DNA of 64,000 nucleotides from an uncultured Granulosicoccaceae bacterium (GTDB lineage: Bacteria; Pseudomonadota; Gammaproteobacteria; Granulosicoccales; Granulosicoccaceae): contig CALLBO010000028.1 of NCBI GenBank assembly GCA_937998875.1, positions 1-64,000 of the forward strand, read 5' to 3'. Each line of letters starts with the position of its first letter. Positions within the stretch are counted from its first letter, which is position 1. Below the pieces are notes generated by a model. That model had not been told where the DNA came from. It searched no databases and was given only the letters and a program-made list of their open reading frames with translations. Of the stretch, positions 368-62,200 are shown one piece after another. A program made the position numbers and the translations under genes.

Positions 368-724
368 ATGAGTAAGCGGAAGAGTTCACTTCAAGCAGCT
401 TTGGCAGGTGCAGCCGAGGCAGAGCCAGCCAAGCCAGTTACAAAAAAACGATCACCTGCAGGGCAGGGGAGGGCGGTTAAACTATCCTCGCCTCGCAAAA
501 CTGCAAAGTCGGCAATTGAGACGCCCAAAGAGAAAACCAGGCGTACTGCAGCCCGGGAAAATACAGTGCTGGTAGGCTGTCACTTTCCACAGCATGTATC
601 GCGTCAGCTTAAGCTGATAGCGGCAGAAGAAGACACCACCAATCAAGCGCTGATAGCTGAAGCCCTGGACCTTCTGTTTACGCGTAAGGGCAAAGGCAAG
701 ATTGCAGATCTGCCGGTAGGGTAG
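368..724 (+). CDS. Ribbon-helix-helix protein with basic N-terminal tail
   Basis: 118 residues. The first ~65 residues are low-complexity and rich in Lys, Arg, Ala and Ser, typical of a disordered DNA-contacting tail. Residues ~66-118 fit a ribbon-helix-helix fold: a strand (NTVLVGCHFP) followed by two helices (HVSRQLKLIAAEEDTTNQAL and an IAEALDLLF helix). Such antitoxin-like RHH proteins are often found on plasmids and integrated elements near partition genes and usually act as small DNA-binding repressors or centromere-binding proteins. No ParA is present nearby. Start ATG 368 has an excellent GAGGAGG site at 354-360. It is the first gene after tRNA-Arg. Function beyond probable DNA binding is inference. 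Confidence 0.7.
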   Translation: MSKRKSSLQAALAGAAEAEPAKPVTKKRSPAGQGRAVKLSSPRKTAKSAIETPKEKTRRTAARENTVLVGCHFPQHVSRQLKLIAAEEDTTNQALIAEALDLLFTRKGKGKIADLPVG

Positions 725-735
725 AGCGAAAAAAA

Positions 736-754
736 GGCCGCTCATAGAGCGGCC
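736..754 (+). terminator. Probable intrinsic terminator after the RHH gene
   Basis: GGCCGCTC (736-743), loop ATA, GAGCGGCC (747-754), then CTTTTCC. The upstream A-run (729-735) would also serve a minus-strand transcript. It lies just downstream of the RHH gene stop. The T tract on the plus side is short, so termination may be moderate. Confidence 0.6.
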
Positions 755-963
755 CTTTCCATCGTTTGCGGTCATCGGCGCCTCCGCCTGTACCGCTATT
801 AAAATCTATCACTTTTTTCGTTGATAAGCAGGTTGCCGCTTGTTCTGTTTTTCCACTTCGACTCGCTGAATCAGATGTCTCACTTCGCTGAATTAGTCAA
901 ATGAGGGACAGAATAATTTTTGTTGGACAAATACATCTTTTAAATCAGTTGTTTACTACTGCA

Positions 964-987
964 TGTCCCACAATGGCATGTGGGACA
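964..987. promoter_or_regulatory. Perfect 9-bp inverted repeat upstream of the ROK-like gene
   Basis: TGTCCCACA (964-972), a 6-bp spacer, then TGTGGGACA (979-987), in the 760-1104 intergenic stretch, about 120 bp before the ROK-like gene. The arrangement resembles a dimeric-repressor operator; it could also form a hairpin but lacks a T run. Related half-motifs (GAGGGACAG at about 903, TTGGACAAA at about 923) occur nearby. Nothing else recognisable lies in this gap except a TGTACA at about 1038. Confidence 0.4.
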
Positions 988-1104
988 CGGAATTTGTGGC
1001 CCACGCTTATTATTACTTACGCTCAAATACAAAAAAATGTACATTCGACTAAGACGCGATAGCGGATCTATCGCTAAGTTAAGAGTTAAGAGCAAGAAGG
1101 ATTG

Positions 1105-2202
1105 ATGAATAAAACCCATGTTGCAGGAATATTCCTAGAGAGGGATGGTGCACATTTGCTACATTCGATAGCAGAGAAAAGTAGTTTACACGGGCCGTGG
1201 GATCTAGAATTTATCGATCAAATGGTTGTCAAATGGGATTCGACAAATCCAGATGAGGCCAGAGCGGGAATATCCAAGCTCGGTGACATGATTGGAGATA
1301 TAGGGTCTGAACTCAAGAGTGTTGCTGTAGCGAGTTATGGACCATTTTTATCTCTAAATAAGGATAGCAATCAATATGGAACACTTCACCCATCTACAGC
1401 AGATAGCCCACTCACTGGTTTTGATCTAAAAGAACAACTTAATAATTCGTTACTTCGGCAAGGAGTAGGTGCCACATCAGGGCCGAAACTTACATTTCAC
1501 ACAGATGCAGATGCTTGTGCTTTAGGGGAAGCTTTTGAAAGAAAGATACCCAATAACTATATTCTTGGCTTCTTATTTGTTACGGAAGGTATTGGTCTTG
1601 GCTGGGTACGTGGCCAGGAAATACTAAGATCTGCTCTTCACCCTGAAATCGGCTTAATACACACCCGTTTAATGCCAAATGATCCATTAGTACTAAATAG
1701 ATCTCATATTCAATATACCGAGACATTAGAATCCTCAGAGAAAGAATTATTATATGGTGGTGGATTAGAGCAGTACGCTGCAAACAAATCATTATATGAA
1801 CGCTACTCTGCGCTAACCAATAAAAGATCACCTGAATTAAAAGACATTATTGACTATCGCGATGATGATCTATGGAATTTTCGCGCTTATTACATAGCCC
1901 AGGCGTGTTTCGCCTGTACTACGATATTCCCTCCACACTATTTAGCTATAGGCGCAAGCATTGATCCAAAGAACGATATTGGAATTAGAGTTAGGTGTAT
2001 GTTTAACGAGTTTATGACAGAACGGCTTAATTCTGAGCAATCAGTATTTGAATATGACGCACTTTCTAACGAGAACTTTATTTCCAATTCTGTGATTTCT
2101 AATGAAGACTCCACAATTAATAAAGTAGGGTATGTGGGGGTCGTCGGAATGTGTTGCGCTGCCGCATCAGAAAATCTTCTAGGGGATGTGAAAAAAATAT
2201 AA
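1105..2202 (+). CDS. ROK-family (sugar kinase/repressor-like) protein
   Basis: 365 residues, divergent from typical ROK proteins. The recognisable part is residues ~130-200: a DADA element (FHTDADACALGEAFE), then LFVTEGIGLGWVRGQEIL and SALHPEIGLIHTRLM, which correspond to the ROK phosphate-binding loop (VGTGIGGGxxxxG) and the HPExGH element. The ROK zinc-binding CxCGxxGC segment is not seen, so metal binding and perhaps kinase activity may be lost. The N terminus has no HTH, which argues against a NagC/XylR-type repressor. Start: ATG 1105 follows AAGAAGG (1094-1100); an adjacent TTG at 1102 is too close to it. The gene is AT-rich and ends at a bidirectional terminator. Substrate is unknown. 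Confidence 0.6.
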   Translation: MNKTHVAGIFLERDGAHLLHSIAEKSSLHGPWDLEFIDQMVVKWDSTNPDEARAGISKLGDMIGDIGSELKSVAVASYGPFLSLNKDSNQYGTLHPSTADSPLTGFDLKEQLNNSLLRQGVGATSGPKLTFHTDADACALGEAFERKIPNNYILGFLFVTEGIGLGWVRGQEILRSALHPEIGLIHTRLMPNDPLVLNRSHIQYTETLESSEKELLYGGGLEQYAANKSLYERYSALTNKRSPELKDIIDYRDDDLWNFRAYYIAQACFACTTIFPPHYLAIGASIDPKNDIGIRVRCMFNEFMTERLNSEQSVFEYDALSNENFISNSVISNEDSTINKVGYVGVVGMCCAAASENLLGDVKKI

Positions 2203-2218
2203 TACAGCATATATATAA

Positions 2219-2247
2219 AAAAACCGCCCAATATAGGCGGTTTTTTT
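2219..2247. terminator. Bidirectional intrinsic terminator
   Basis: ACCGCC (2223-2228), 7-nt loop, GGCGGT (2236-2241), flanked by an A-run on the left and seven T on the right. It lies between the convergent ROK-like gene and the Phd-like gene and can stop transcription from both sides. Confidence 0.85.
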
Positions 2248-2251
2248 ATTT

Positions 2252-2569
2252 CTATTTCCTTTTAGTATTAAGTACATCCTGTAAATGTACTAGCTTTCCT
2301 TTTCCACTTTTCTTCTTTAATTTCAAAAATTCTCCGATAGCCTCATGCATATCCTTTAACTCATCTTCTGTCAGATCATAAATCATGTCGGCATGATCGT
2401 CGGGTATTACAGATGCCTGTATCTTGTTATGACGCGATATTCTCACACGGCTCAAATGATGATGCTTTACAGATTCCAATATTTCACTGAGATTCCTTCG
2501 AAAATAACCAGTTTCATACTCTTTGATTTCGTCATTTTCGTCATTTTCGTCATTTTTTTTCATGGCCAT
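2252..2569 (-). CDS. Phd/YefM-like antitoxin, no adjacent toxin
   Basis: 105 residues. After an acidic N-terminal tail (a repeated Asp-Glu-Asn run), residues ~20-60 read YFRRNLSEILESVKHHHLSR, then VRISRHNKIQASVIPDDH. This follows the Phd/YefM pattern, in which an N-terminal helix precedes a strand with VxITRHGKPVAVLV and a short helix. The C-terminal part (~60-105) is helical and basic, where antitoxins usually wrap their toxin. No RelE, Doc or PIN-type partner lies on either side; the neighbours are a ROK-like protein and a poly-Gly membrane protein. It may be an orphan remnant or a stand-alone regulator. The N-terminal repeat is encoded by three tandem CGTCATTTT units near 2530-2555. Confidence 0.55.
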   Translation of the reverse strand: MAMKKNDENDENDEIKEYETGYFRRNLSEILESVKHHHLSRVRISRHNKIQASVIPDDHADMIYDLTEDELKDMHEAIGEFLKLKKKSGKGKLVHLQDVLNTKRK

Positions 2570-2641
2570 GGTTTCATAATTACCTATTAATTAACCCGAC
2601 AGAGTGGCCTCTGTCGGGAGTCGCTAGAACTAACTACTCTT

Positions 2642-3820
2642 TTATCTTACTTTCAGATTTTGTTGATACAGGGACATTATGCCAAGTGCGCTTCCTAGTA
2701 TGAGTGCGTTACTAGCAAACCCACTCCACGTTTCGTGACCAGGCGCTGAATCGGGTACACCGATCTGGTTTCTGAAACCGTTTCTGGCTACAGTAAAAGT
2801 CCATCCATCGTTGCTTAAAAAACCGCTCAGTACCAACGTACTGTTGGCAATAATATCGTTACCAATAATACTAGTCACCGGGTTGTCAGCACCAGTTTGG
2901 TTACTAGTACCGCCTTTGGCTACAGCAACAATCCAGTTGTCGTTTATCGAAACACCGGTCATAGGTATTACCTGTGAATTGTGGCTTTCGGAAGATGCAA
3001 TAACATTGTTCATTCGATTCAAAAAAGCTAGCTTTTCTCTACTTAGAACAGTTGTATCGTTATTGTGTCCGCTAGCAATATTGTTACCACCGTCGACACT
3101 TGCCGCTGTACTCATATCGTTAAGAAAAAACACCAGACAGATCAGGCTTGCTGCCATGCCAATACCAACTAACCTATGATTATCTCGCTTACAGAACTTT
3201 GCTGATATTTTTTTCTGCCACCTACTGGCGTTATCAGCGCTATCCTCTAAACCTATTGCAGACCCATTGATTTCTAATGCTAGGAAATTCCTATCAACGC
3301 TAGGTACCCTGAATGACTGATTCTTAAGTATGTATTTAGCAATTACCGGAGTATCAATATCACCATCGTCATCTAATAAGGCAGCTATTTGGCGCCCGAT
3401 TTTTCGCGCAAGACTGTTCGCGTGATGCAAGTCCAAAACATTTTCACCATGCGTACGAGCAGAGTTGGAACCGCCTCCGCCTCCGCCTCCGCCATCTCCC
3501 GTGCTGAAATCAATGTCACTAATGAACAAGGTGGTGACGCTATTTGTCTTATAGAGAAAGTAGGAAAATACAACGGTGACAATTTCATCATTACAAAGGT
3601 GGATACGAACTGACTCAATTAGTTCGACTTCGTATCTAGGATATTCAATATTTTTAACTGCTTCCTTAAACGATTTAAAAGAAGCTTTTAGGATCGTTTG
3701 AACGCCAGCTTGTCTCTCATTAAAAGTGTCTCGTAAGTACGAGAGTGTTTCCTTATCTATTCGAGTGCGAGAGAGGTTTTCACCTGAAAATGACTTTATA
3801 TTTTTCGCATTAGGTTTCAT
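2642..3820 (-). CDS. Unrecognised membrane protein with octaglycine linker
   Basis: 392 residues, no family recognised. Seen in order: a basic/acidic N-terminal region (~1-108) with alternating strands; a run of eight glycines at ~109-116; a linker with HGENVLDLHHANSLARKIGR; one clear membrane segment at ~218-236 (LVGIGMAASLICLVFFL); and a C-terminal part with two related units (VAVAKGGTSNQTGADNP and FTVARNGFRNQIGVPDS), about 62 residues apart. A second hydrophobic stretch lies at ~369-385. The gene is divergent from the oxygenase-like gene at 4161 across an intergenic region crowded with GTAC sites. Its base use is AT-rich like the rest of the accessory region. Function cannot be assigned. 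Confidence 0.6.
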   Translation of the reverse strand: MKPNAKNIKSFSGENLSRTRIDKETLSYLRDTFNERQAGVQTILKASFKSFKEAVKNIEYPRYEVELIESVRIHLCNDEIVTVVFSYFLYKTNSVTTLFISDIDFSTGDGGGGGGGGSNSARTHGENVLDLHHANSLARKIGRQIAALLDDDGDIDTPVIAKYILKNQSFRVPSVDRNFLALEINGSAIGLEDSADNASRWQKKISAKFCKRDNHRLVGIGMAASLICLVFFLNDMSTAASVDGGNNIASGHNNDTTVLSREKLAFLNRMNNVIASSESHNSQVIPMTGVSINDNWIVAVAKGGTSNQTGADNPVTSIIGNDIIANSTLVLSGFLSNDGWTFTVARNGFRNQIGVPDSAPGHETWSGFASNALILGSALGIMSLYQQNLKVR

Positions 3821-3863
3821 TAGCGGCGACCTCCAAAGTGACCTTTGTGCTCGTTATACAACG

Positions 3864-4081
3864 ATAGTACAAAAACACATAATGTACAAAGAAACGTAAC
3901 GTACATATATCACATAATGAACGTTTTGTACAAATATATCCACAGGCATTTATATATAAATCTATAAAAATCAAATAGTTAAACTATTTCTCGTGATAAT
4001 ACCTTCCCCGCTAATTTATCTCGAAAAATCTTTTTGTAAAAAATAACCCTTGATTTTTTGTACAAAACGTACAATATGTAC
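3864..4081. promoter_or_regulatory. Cluster of GTAC sites with iterated GTACAAA in a divergent AT-rich region
   Basis: Seven GTAC tetramers occur in about 215 bp (3867, 3884, 3901, 3928, 4060, 4069, 4078). Four extend to GTACAAA in the same orientation (3867, 3884, 3928, 4060); two of those sit in TTTTGTACAAA palindromes. One near-match to a DnaA box (ATATCCACA, 3936-3944; 8 of 9 to TTATCCACA) lies in the middle. The region separates two divergent genes and is very AT-rich. It may be a multi-site operator for both promoters or the remnant of an iteron-type origin; neither is shown. Confidence 0.5.
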
Positions 4082-56425: not shown

Positions 56426-56716
56426 ATGAATATTCGTCCACTTCACGACCGTGTGGTCGTGCGACGTATGGAAGAAGAGCGCACCAGTGCCGGTGGCATC
56501 GTAATCCCTGATTCTGCGACTGAAAAGCCAATCCGCGGCGAGATCACAGCAGTTGGCAATGGCAAAGTGACAGACGGCGGCGACCTTCGTGCGCTGGACG
56601 TTAAAGTCGGCGATACCGTTTTGTTTGGCAAGTACTCCGGTACTGAAATCAAAATGGACGGTGAAGAACTTCTGGTGATGCGTGAAGACGACATCATGGC
56701 GGTTATCGAAGGCTAG
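56426..56716 (+). CDS. groES: Co-chaperonin GroES
   Basis: 96 residues. [40 protein letters not shown] and the mobile-loop region are canonical, as is the ending [14 protein letters not shown]. It caps GroEL and closes the folding chamber. AGAGGAG precedes the start. It is first in the operon with groEL, 64 bp downstream, under CIRCE/HrcA control. Confidence 0.98.
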
Positions 56717-56735
56717 ACAGCCTCAATCGTTTTAA

Positions 56736-58421
<1,686 letters not shown>

Positions 58422-58490: not shown

Positions 58491-58710
58491 ATTTTTGCGA
58501 ACCTCAACCGGACCTGTGTTGTGGTTTGAATGGGCAAAAGTCACAATAGTTTGTATGTGTTCCTTGCATTGACGATATGCAATGTTAATAATGGCTGGTT
58601 GCTCTTTCACCGAAAGCCAATGTATGAGAATTTGCACCCTCTTGAGCGAGCGTCAACTGACAAATCGCGCAAGTATTTACTTAAAATTAGAATATTCCAT
58701 GGAATTAGCC

Positions 58711-59475
58711 ATGGGGTACAGAAGACTGAAAGTGATAAAAATAACTATAAAATCTTCAGTTCTGTCAGTGGCAATGATCACCGTTATCGGTAGTGGAGCT
58801 AATGCGCACGCCGGTGTGTTTGATCAGATTGCTGCTGTCGCGAACACCGCACTTCCCGGCTACGGTCGTGTACAAACCATGAGCGCTCAATCTGAACTTG
58901 AGCCTGCTCTTATAGAAGCCGGTATCAGGGAAGCGATTGCAGTTGCCAGTGATCGTGCAGTCGTAAAGTTCGAGACAACCTACCTTGCTGCCAGTGAGGG
59001 TTCATTGTCATCTGATATGCGTCGAGCTCAGAAAATGGCTGCCAAAATGGGTCAGGATGCTTCATTTGAGCAACTTCAAAAGCAGGTTGAGGAAGCAGTT
59101 ATTGCAGCAGCACCTGCCACAAGCGAGTTATTTAAAGAAACAGTAGAGCGGCTTGAGCTTGGTGAGCCACGCAGTCTTCTTGCTTCACACGATACTGCCG
59201 CAACAGATTTTCTGCGGCACCGGGTATCTGTGAGTTTGCAAAGACAGTTGCAGCCCATTGTGACCGAGTTGCTCGAAGATTCGGGTGCCGCATCAACCAG
59301 CGCAGCCCTGTCATCACAAATTAGTTTCGGTACACTGCTCGACACCATCGTAGAAGATTATGTGCTGCAACAAAGTATTGATGGCTTTTTTGATCACCTT
59401 GAGGCTGAAGAATCCGAGATCAGGCAAAACCCCGCGTCCCGCACAACGCGCCTGATGCGACGGGTTTTCGGCTAG
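58711..59475 (+). CDS. Exported DUF4197-like protein
   Basis: 254 residues from ATG 58711, which has GGAA 6 bases upstream; ATG 58699 or GTG 58732 are alternatives. A signal peptide ends near GANAHA-GV. The mature part is helical: LIEAGIREAIAVASDRAVVK, MGQDASFEQLQKQVEEAVIA, ATSELFKETVERLELGEPRS, LLASHDTAATDFLRHRVSVS. This follows DUF4197, where AAPxAxxIFxxAI and L-x-G-xxxAATxYFR recur. Function of the family is unknown; a periplasmic location is likely. It ends upstream of the FabA-like gene. Confidence 0.7.
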   Translation: MGYRRLKVIKITIKSSVLSVAMITVIGSGANAHAGVFDQIAAVANTALPGYGRVQTMSAQSELEPALIEAGIREAIAVASDRAVVKFETTYLAASEGSLSSDMRRAQKMAAKMGQDASFEQLQKQVEEAVIAAAPATSELFKETVERLELGEPRSLLASHDTAATDFLRHRVSVSLQRQLQPIVTELLEDSGAASTSAALSSQISFGTLLDTIVEDYVLQQSIDGFFDHLEAEESEIRQNPASRTTRLMRRVFG

Positions 59476-59685: not shown

Positions 59686-60753
59686 ATGAATACGAAAGCT
59701 GCCTCTGACCACGACCTGGGTTCACTTTTAAACCTTAGTCGCGACGAACTGTGCCATTTGGATTGGCGATCGCTACAGTGTTTTACTGGTGAGTTGCTCG
59801 ACCTGCATGCTGAAGGTGCGCTTGGAAACGAAAATTTTGCCAAGCTGCCACGCCGGCCGATTTTGTGTATTGATCAGATCGATGTCCTTAATGAGGAGCG
59901 GATAGAGGCGTCTTTTCAGTTCCCTGAAGATGCGTCGGATTGGTCGTTTGCCGCAAGTGAGTCTCTTGAAATGCTGTTTCAGGATCAGCTCGACCAGCTG
60001 GTCGGATTCTGGGGTGCCCGAAAAACAGATGGCATCGGCAGAGCACTGTCCTCTGGTGTGTGTAATCTGCACCATTCACTTGACTATGAAGCTGGAAAAC
60101 GCCTCCGCTACGTGATGGAGAAACGTAAATGGATGGAAGGTGAGTCTGGAGGGGGTACAGCAGTTTTTAACGGAAAGATAATCGACGATAAAGATCAGGT
60201 CCTGCTTGAGACACGCAATGTCATCGTCGGGATTCTAAGTCCTGCAGTTATTCGCGATTTGCGCAAAAAATTTGGGGGTACTGGTGGTGTCGATGATAGT
60301 CGCGCGCAAGATAAGGTCTCGAGTCTAACTATCCCAATATACGATACCGATCTGGGTGTTACCGGTGTCGAAGATAGTAAAATCGCTACACGACAAGCAA
60401 CCCAGAAAATCACTCCTGATTTATGGCCCTTGCGATATCACTTTCGCGCAGATCCGGTTGTGCCCGGTAATTTTGGCACGCATGGCATGATAGCCCTGCT
60501 AAAAGCCACAGCCAGGGAACGGTTCGGCCTCACAGATCCTGTGTTCAGGTCCATGAAAAAGAAGTCGTTTTCCGGAATGATCTTCGAAGATCCTAAGCAA
60601 ATTCGGTTCGAGCTGCTGGATATCAGCAAAACCGGGTCTGATGAAGTTGTGGCTAAGGAAGCCAACCTCTACCTGGAAGATACTCAAGGGCAGAGACTCA
60701 TAGAAAATCCAATCTATACCTTTAAAGATTTGCTGGTCGCTGAACGTAAATAG
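59686..60753 (+). CDS. FabA-like beta-hydroxyacyl-ACP dehydratase, fused double hotdog
   Basis: 355 residues, twice the size of E. coli FabA. The first hotdog (~55-200) matches FabA in LEMLFQDQLDQLVGFWGARK and IGRALSSGVCNLHHSLDYEA, and includes Asp100 aligned to the FabA catalytic Asp84. The His70 position there is Trp86. The second hotdog (~235-355) carries ITPDLWPLRYHFRADPVVPG with His252 at the FabA His position, while the Asp position is His266. One complete His/Asp active site therefore exists only across the two halves. This resembles PfaC-type dehydratase didomains of polyketide-like fatty acid synthases. It sits directly upstream of fabB, in the usual fabA slot, and likely acts in unsaturated fatty acid synthesis. 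A GTG at 59683 is also possible. Confidence 0.78.
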   Translation: MNTKAASDHDLGSLLNLSRDELCHLDWRSLQCFTGELLDLHAEGALGNENFAKLPRRPILCIDQIDVLNEERIEASFQFPEDASDWSFAASESLEMLFQDQLDQLVGFWGARKTDGIGRALSSGVCNLHHSLDYEAGKRLRYVMEKRKWMEGESGGGTAVFNGKIIDDKDQVLLETRNVIVGILSPAVIRDLRKKFGGTGGVDDSRAQDKVSSLTIPIYDTDLGVTGVEDSKIATRQATQKITPDLWPLRYHFRADPVVPGNFGTHGMIALLKATARERFGLTDPVFRSMKKKSFSGMIFEDPKQIRFELLDISKTGSDEVVAKEANLYLEDTQGQRLIENPIYTFKDLLVAERK

Positions 60754-60982
60754 TAGCGACATTGCACCGACCCGTTTGGCAGCCTGATGCCATGTCGTGC
60801 ACCCGGCAAGATAATTAGCGAAGGGTAGTGGTATTGTTGCACTGCTGTTAAGCGATAGGTGTATGGGTTCTGATAAACTAGCAGTCGGCAGTGGGCAGTA
60901 AAGAAAGTTTGTCACCTGAACCTTCGAAACATCCCACGAGAACAGCAAATATCTTTTGACGGCAAAATTCCAGGGGAATAGC

Positions 60983-62200
60983 GTGCGAAGAGCGGTAGTT
61001 ACCGGACTGGGCATTGTGTCTTGTCTTGGCAATGACAAACATCAGGTTACCGAAGCGCTAAAGACAGGTCGCTCCGGCATTTCATTAAAGCCCGAATATG
61101 CCGAAATTGGCATGCGCAGCCATATTGCTGGCAGCCCGGATATTGATTTTAAAGATCTCATAGACCGCAAGCAGCTCCGCTTTATGGGTGGCTCGGCGGC
61201 CTATGCTTATATTTCCATGCAACAGGCGATTGAAGATTCAGGTCTGACTGAAGCGATGGTATCTAATGTTCGCACCGGCATCATTGCGGGTTCCGGTGGC
61301 GCTTCTTCAGCAAGTCAGGTGGAGGCGGCCGATGTCATGCGTGAAAAAGGTGTACGGCGTGTCGGCCCGTACCGGGTAACGCAGACGATGGGCAGTACTG
61401 TGTCAGCCTGCCTTGCAACACCATTCAGTATAAAAGGGATTAACTACTCCATGTCATCGGCGTGCTCAACCAGTGCGCATTGCATAGGTAATGCTGTTGA
61501 GCAAATCCAGTTGAATAAACAGGATATTGTTTTTGCCGGTGGTGGTGAAGAAGAACATTGGACAATGAGTTGTCTGTTCGATGCGATGGGCGCATTGTCT
61601 TCCAAATATAACGATACCCCGACGGAAGCATCACGTGCGTACGATGCCGATCGGGATGGTTTTGTTATCGCCGGTGGTGGAGGTATGCTGGTTGTTGAAG
61701 AGCTTGAGCATGCACTGGCGCGTGGTGCAAACATCTATGCAGAAATTATTGGCTACGGTGCGACATCAGATGGTGCAGACATGGTTGCTCCATCGGGAGA
61801 GGGTGCCGTTCGCTGTATGCAATTAGCCATGCATGATATTGGTGGTGAAATTGACTACCTCAACGCACACGGTACCAGCACGCCTGCCGGAGATGTAACC
61901 GAGCTGCGGGCTGTAAACGAAGCGTTCAGTGGTAAGACACCCAAGATTAGCTCTACAAAATCTTTATCCGGCCACTCTTTGGGTGCCGCTGGTGTACAGG
62001 AAGCGATCTATTGCCTTTTGATGCAGCAGGGCAACTTCATCACTGGCTCTGCGAATATCAGTAATCTTGATCCGGAAGCGGGAGATGCAGATATTGTTCG
62101 TGAAACGATTAACGATGCGAAGATAGACACAGTCATGTCTAACAGTTTTGGATTTGGCGGTACTAATGCTTCGCTGGTGATGCGTCGTTACACTGACTAG
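60983..62200 (+). CDS. fabB: 3-oxoacyl-ACP synthase I (FabB)
   Basis: 405 residues from GTG 60983 ([20 protein letters not shown]), which has AGGGGA 5 bases upstream; E. coli FabB is 406. Active-site residues are Cys in [20 protein letters not shown] and two His in [12 protein letters not shown] and [12 protein letters not shown]. The gatekeeper Phe-rich segment [14 protein letters not shown] closes the protein. It condenses malonyl-ACP and is needed for unsaturated fatty acid elongation. It is preceded by the FabA-like gene with a 229-bp gap, enough for its own promoter. Confidence 0.95.

Follow-up and report, generated by a model that had tools for sequence, protein, structure and literature searches.

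FabA, the founding hotdog enzyme, places the double bond in membrane fats; textbooks present it as a symmetric two-site homodimer. The locus described here raises the question of whether one chain with one site can take its place. In the window (the whole 64,000-nucleotide stretch of contig CALLBO010000028.1 that was analysed, from an uncultured Granulosicoccaceae bacterium, genome G000), the slot before fabB holds a gene for a 355-residue FabA-like protein, hereafter the fusion. The original prediction was that this protein is a fused pseudo-dimer with one composite active site. Invariant residues that complement each other, a confident model with two hotdogs and strict exchange with FabA between genomes support this reading.

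A FabA-like fusion gene next to fabB

The gene for this putative pseudo-dimeric FabA-like dehydratase (59686..60753, + strand) is an open frame with relatives in and outside the order. It runs from an ATG at 59686 to a stop at 60751-60753, and a GTG one codon upstream is likewise open. The predicted adjacency of a 355-residue FabA-like fusion to fabB holds: the ORF is real, and the neighbouring gene (60956..62200, +; true start probably GTG 60983) encodes a genuine FabB (beta-ketoacyl-ACP synthase I) by NF005935 (709.6 bits, cut-off 630). In a Pfam profile search, PF07977 matches the C-terminal hotdog alone (32.3 bits, cut-off 23), and the protein falls far under the FabA equivalog cut-offs (NF003509, 45.2 of 124 bits; TIGR01749, 36.5 of 238 bits). 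Matches of phmmer in the PDB are essentially confined to FabA chains and span the HFxxDPVVPG region, the top one being the tandem FabA chain 2cf2_C. Identity to FabA is only about 20-30% in each half, and both halves of a 13-relative fusion profile match FabA (best E 4e-16).

Twelve relatives (56-88% identity to the window protein) occur among 48 genomes of the window's order, and eight further members come from other lineages. The family alignment used here holds 20 full-length members, the window's included, from several gammaproteobacterial lineages at 54-88% identity to it. A scan of GTDB genomes yielded 20 loci, including Granulosicoccaceae metagenome assemblies and the cultured Leucothrix pacifica and L. 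arctica. The family is nonetheless rare, since only 2 of 369 genomes sampled evenly across the class encode a full-length fusion. A plasmid search gave no match, and searches of the available literature found neither a description of a stand-alone fused FabA nor fatty-acid data for carriers.

Complementary residues on the two hotdogs

The N-terminal hotdog (residues ~33-184; 59782..60237, +) is detected solely by profile-profile comparison with FabA (hhalign 94%, E 1e-7). It combines a FabA-like N-terminal motif with DQLDQLVGF and a shortened His loop. The start of its central helix, QDQLDQLVGF, resembles LDAMWQLVGF of FabA and places Asp100 (59983..59985, +) at the Asp84 position, which confirms that the first hotdog keeps the catalytic Asp, the predicted acid of the single site. 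The position of FabA Trp87 is occupied by an invariant Asp103. Trp86 (59941..59943, +; DLW/DW motif) had been taken to stand where the catalytic His should be. The residue is present and invariant but corresponds more plausibly to FabA Trp65: the conserved Trp and Asp lie 14 residues apart here versus 19 in FabA, so the N-terminal His loop is about five residues shorter rather than carrying a Trp in exchange for its His.

The C-terminal hotdog (residues ~221-353; 60346..60744, +) retains the FabA His loop. His252 (60439..60441, +), in the HFxxDPVVPG motif, is the equivalent of the catalytic His70, and Gly261 (60466..60468, +) that of Gly79 in the active-site loop. Without a gap from His252, the alignment arrives at His266 (60481..60483, +) at the Asp84 position, as had been proposed for the second hotdog. 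Eleven residues are invariant in the 20 full-length sequences: Trp86, Asp100, Gln104, Gly107, Trp247, His252, Phe253, Asp256, Pro260, Gly261 and His266. The invariance of Trp86, Asp100, His252 and His266 means that the arrangement reflects neither chance nor a mutation of one genome. That of Asp100 on one side and His252, Gly261 and His266 on the other suggests that a FabA-type site can form only once, across the hotdogs. As judged from the alignment, the mirror site cannot form from either side, with the N-terminal His loop shortened and the C-terminal Asp replaced by His266.

A predicted two-hotdog structure

Structure prediction and superposition on FabA gave a picture in keeping with the pseudo-dimer. 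An AF2 model based on a 13-row alignment of the fusion family is confident overall (pLDDT 85.5, pTM 0.86) and contains two long hotdog helices (residues 95-113 and 261-280), with the His loop among its least confident regions (mean pLDDT 65 over residues 251-260). The best Foldseek match in the PDB is again 2cf2_C, a chain of two FabA copies, which covers both hotdogs (E 8e-21, TMq 0.70), versus a TMq of ~0.39 (TMt ~0.8) for single FabA chains. Both hotdogs thus superpose on the FabA pair simultaneously, although an RMSD of 8.9 Å to 2cf2_C indicates that their packing is not exactly that of the fitted entry.

One-for-one exchange with canonical FabA

By PF07977, canonical FabA is encoded in 35 of the 48 genomes of the window's order (149-173 bits) and the fusion in the other 13; none encodes both and none encodes neither. 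Fusion genomes G052 and G056 likewise lack FabA. Among 63 genomes of the Leucothrix order, 48 encode FabA, 6 the fusion, 9 neither and none both. The nine with neither gene (G423, G431, G434, G442, G446, G450, G451, G458 and G461) may reflect incompleteness or a desaturase-only route. Most genomes compared are metagenome assemblies, in which gene gaps could hide FabA in single cases, but incompleteness does not easily yield a perfect exchange over 48 genomes. We found no separate canonical FabA elsewhere in the window's genome, only a FabA-like paralogue in which Glu stands in place of Asp84.

Mapped onto a FabF tree of the window's order, the distribution calls for about seven switches between FabA and the fusion, six of them forced by supported branches. 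In all six independent pairs, FabA and the fusion change in opposite directions (p 0.031 by sign test, the lowest value that six pairs can give).

Gene movement and decay of fabA

Conserved neighbours define the slot. Upstream of it in the window lie groES-groEL (56426..58421, +), found in the same order in G015, G006 and G016, with groEL also in G017 and G013, and a conserved ORF (58582..59475, +) that precedes fabA-fabB or fabB alone in eight genomes (G015, G014, G006, G016, G013, G001, G003 and G030). The position before fabB holds canonical fabA in the sister genome G015 and the fusion in the window's genome and G017; it is empty in G006, G016 and G013 (groEL-orf-fabB) and in G001 (orf-fabB). 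DNA similarity between the window and G015 ends on both sides of the slot, and a search beside the window's fusion and in the empty slots of other carriers turned up no convincing trace of canonical fabA at the DNA level. In G003, ligase-like and thiolase-like genes fill the slot before fabB (contig 141, L154, read on the minus strand, 644-3991).

FabA replacement is in progress in G030. This genome carries the fusion on contig 150 and the ancestral orf-fabA-fabB arrangement on contig 147, where fabB is intact and fabA has decayed (L146 3022-3537, +). The fabA pseudogene contains TAG and TGA stops, the latter just ahead of the catalytic His, and has changes at 13 of 93 positions that are otherwise invariant, versus 0-3 in intact homologues. 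G030 thus captures the displacement of a core lipid enzyme under way, with fabA eroding next to fabB while the fusion is present.

The fusion gene spreads horizontally, and the window's copy occupies the fabA slot itself. The gene is found in many differing neighbourhoods. In its tree, the window and G017 are joined by G032, which belongs to another genus, and G006 groups with G056, a genome outside the order. Monophyly of the fusion genes from the window's genus fails an AU test (p 2e-37). On the FabF tree, G006 groups with the canonical-FabA genome G014, and G032 falls among another genus. An origin of the fusion in place from fabA was considered and rejected, because the gene is distant from fabB in most carriers and the fusion and FabF trees disagree.

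Proposed function and competing explanations

We propose that the fusion fills the role of FabA as a stand-alone pseudo-dimer in one chain and has repeatedly displaced the ordinary enzyme, a reading to which we assign a probability of roughly three in four. Its hotdogs would pack as the two subunits of the FabA homodimer do, bringing Asp100 and His252 together in space. The C-terminal hotdog would supply His252 and Gly261 in its His loop, and the acid would come from the N-terminal hotdog, giving one composite site; the mirror site would have been lost on both sides, through the shortened N-terminal loop and His266. The fusion would catalyse dehydration of 3-hydroxydecanoyl-ACP and probably also the trans-2 to cis-3 isomerisation, the latter inferred because the gene exchanges with FabA and the Asp is kept. 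Arriving horizontally, the gene would lead to loss of the resident fabA, and in the window's lineage it would have taken the fabA slot before fabB. We also lean towards the view that, in related marine bacteria, homodimeric FabA has given way on at least six occasions to a horizontally mobile single-chain FabA with a single inter-hotdog site of N-terminal Asp and C-terminal His.

The strongest competitor, which we nevertheless regard as unlikely, is that a one-site dehydratase took over dehydration only, without isomerisation, leaving unsaturated fats to desaturases. PF00487 desaturases, present in 47 of the 48 genomes of the window's order, are indeed another possible source of such fats, and both the replacement of FabA Trp87 by Asp103 and the low identity of the halves to FabA speak for this reading. 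A second plain dehydratase would, however, be redundant in the 12 of 13 fusion genomes that have FabZ-range matches. The acid position moreover keeps Asp rather than FabZ's Glu; the Asp-to-Glu change in FabZ may explain its absence of isomerase activity (PMC516016). Finally, 10 of the 13 fusion genomes of the order have kept fabB, on which the unsaturated branch depends.

More doubtful still is a dehydratase didomain of the PfaC type that was freed from a PUFA synthase and now acts on a secondary lipid. In PfaC hotdog pairs the His loop is missing from the first member, and His and Asp/Glu are both found in the second (PMC4882568; PMC9667614), a pattern that the PfaC-like proteins compared here also show. 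The fusion has the same single-chain layout, a His-less N-terminal pseudo-hotdog ahead of a core hotdog that carries His, a likeness that the original prediction had remarked, and as a whole it aligns with PfaC DH2 across 285 columns. In the profile comparison, the expected likeness extends to one half: the C-terminal hotdog matches PfaC hd3 slightly better than FabA (hhalign 97.4%, score 73.1, versus 96.5%, score 63.9), but the N-terminal hotdog matches FabA (94%, score 53.4) and not PfaC hd2 (0.9%, score 17.8) or hd0 (6%). The PfaC core hotdog keeps its Asp/Glu, whereas the fusion has the invariant His266, so that its acid can come only from the N-terminal hotdog. PfaC is also part of a PUFA synthase megaenzyme within a pfa cluster; the fusion is a stand-alone ORF with no pfa or other PUFA cluster around it, and no PfaC-size frame with FabA domains was found in the window's genome. 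A freed didomain would leave the one-for-one exchange with FabA unexplained. Because the fusion departs from PfaC in several of these respects, we treat it as a stand-alone branch of its own among the FabA-like dehydratases. PfaC-like proteins do occur in the window's order (L147 on contig 538 of G008, L220 in G023 and L221 in G025); they have three or four FabA-type hotdogs and are possible PUFA-type synthases.

The loss of one catalytic residue per hotdog could also point to a non-catalytic pair, a scaffold or regulator in the fabA locus, but this is very improbable given that the losses are exactly complementary and all remaining parts of one site are invariant at 54-88% identity. That the FabA function instead resides in the FabA-like paralogue on contig 51 of the window's genome, with the fusion in another role, is hardly credible: the paralogue passes the NF003509 cut-off (134.6 bits, cut-off 124) but fails TIGR01749 (124 of 238 bits), and has Glu at the Asp84 position (LLLESIWQL), the FabZ state. 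Among the 13 fusion genomes of the order, proteins of this kind turned up in G000 and G006 alone (104-105 bits), and G003 has a weaker match.

Comparison with FabA and other double hotdogs

Set against FabA (1MKA, 4B0B), the single-chain FabA proposed here has two FabA-related hotdogs in which the equivalents of His70, Gly79 and Asp84 occur once each, on opposite hotdogs (H252 and G261 versus D100). Between genomes it swaps one-for-one with FabA, and in the window it occupies the fabA slot before fabB. FabA, by contrast, is a homodimer of ~171-aa chains with two His/Asp sites, whereas the fusion is one 355-aa double hotdog with one possible site.

The dehydratase double hotdogs of animal FAS and modular PKS likewise have one composite site per double hotdog. 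There the His comes from the N-terminal hotdog and the Asp from the C-terminal one, a polarity opposite to that proposed for the fusion. PKS entries are also weaker structural matches to the fusion (Foldseek TMq 0.35-0.43). Eukaryotic hydratase 2 (MFE-2) is a single-chain hotdog pair with one remaining site (PMC2698920); it resembles the fusion in this respect but belongs to another family and carries both catalytic residues on one overhanging segment of one hotdog. Didomains of a pseudo-domain and a core dehydratase from PUFA synthases complement E. coli fabA(Ts) (PMC9667614, PMC4882568).

If our reading is correct, some marine bacteria have lost two-chain FabA and appear to use a one-chain, single-site version, with several swaps by gene transfer. 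The second FabA site would then be dispensable in nature, one site being sufficient, and the fusion would provide a stand-alone parallel to the pseudo-dimer origin of FAS and PUFA-synthase dehydratases. Each half could be mutated separately, which would make the origin of each catalytic residue testable.

FabB partners and FabA-like paralogues

The pairing with FabB that was predicted from the window stands there but does not extend to the family, in which the gene lies beside fabB only in the window's genome and its closest relative. Constant pairing was rejected, as fusion carriers in the Leucothrix order lack FabB. FabB is also absent from fusion genomes G009, G012 and G032 of the window's order (80%, 94% and 76% complete). 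No FabB match at E <= 1e-100 was found in any of the 63 Leucothrix-order genomes, including the 48 with canonical FabA. FabB is thus missing there whether FabA or the fusion is present, and its absence is no argument against a FabA role. In that order, FabA and the fusion must presumably work with FabF. FabF is reported to support unsaturated synthesis in Clostridium (PMC2700279).

The contig 51 paralogue is the third FabA-domain protein of the window's genome (L002 1453-2103, -; 216 aa). Its counterpart in G006 (L156 4933-5505) lies behind AMP-ligase-like and aminotransferase-like genes, neighbours that suggest that both paralogues may be secondary-metabolism dehydratases. Near the paralogue on contig 51 is a reverse-transcriptase-like ORF (L157 6333-7763, +; 476 aa) with a YADD motif, possibly a retron or similar element.
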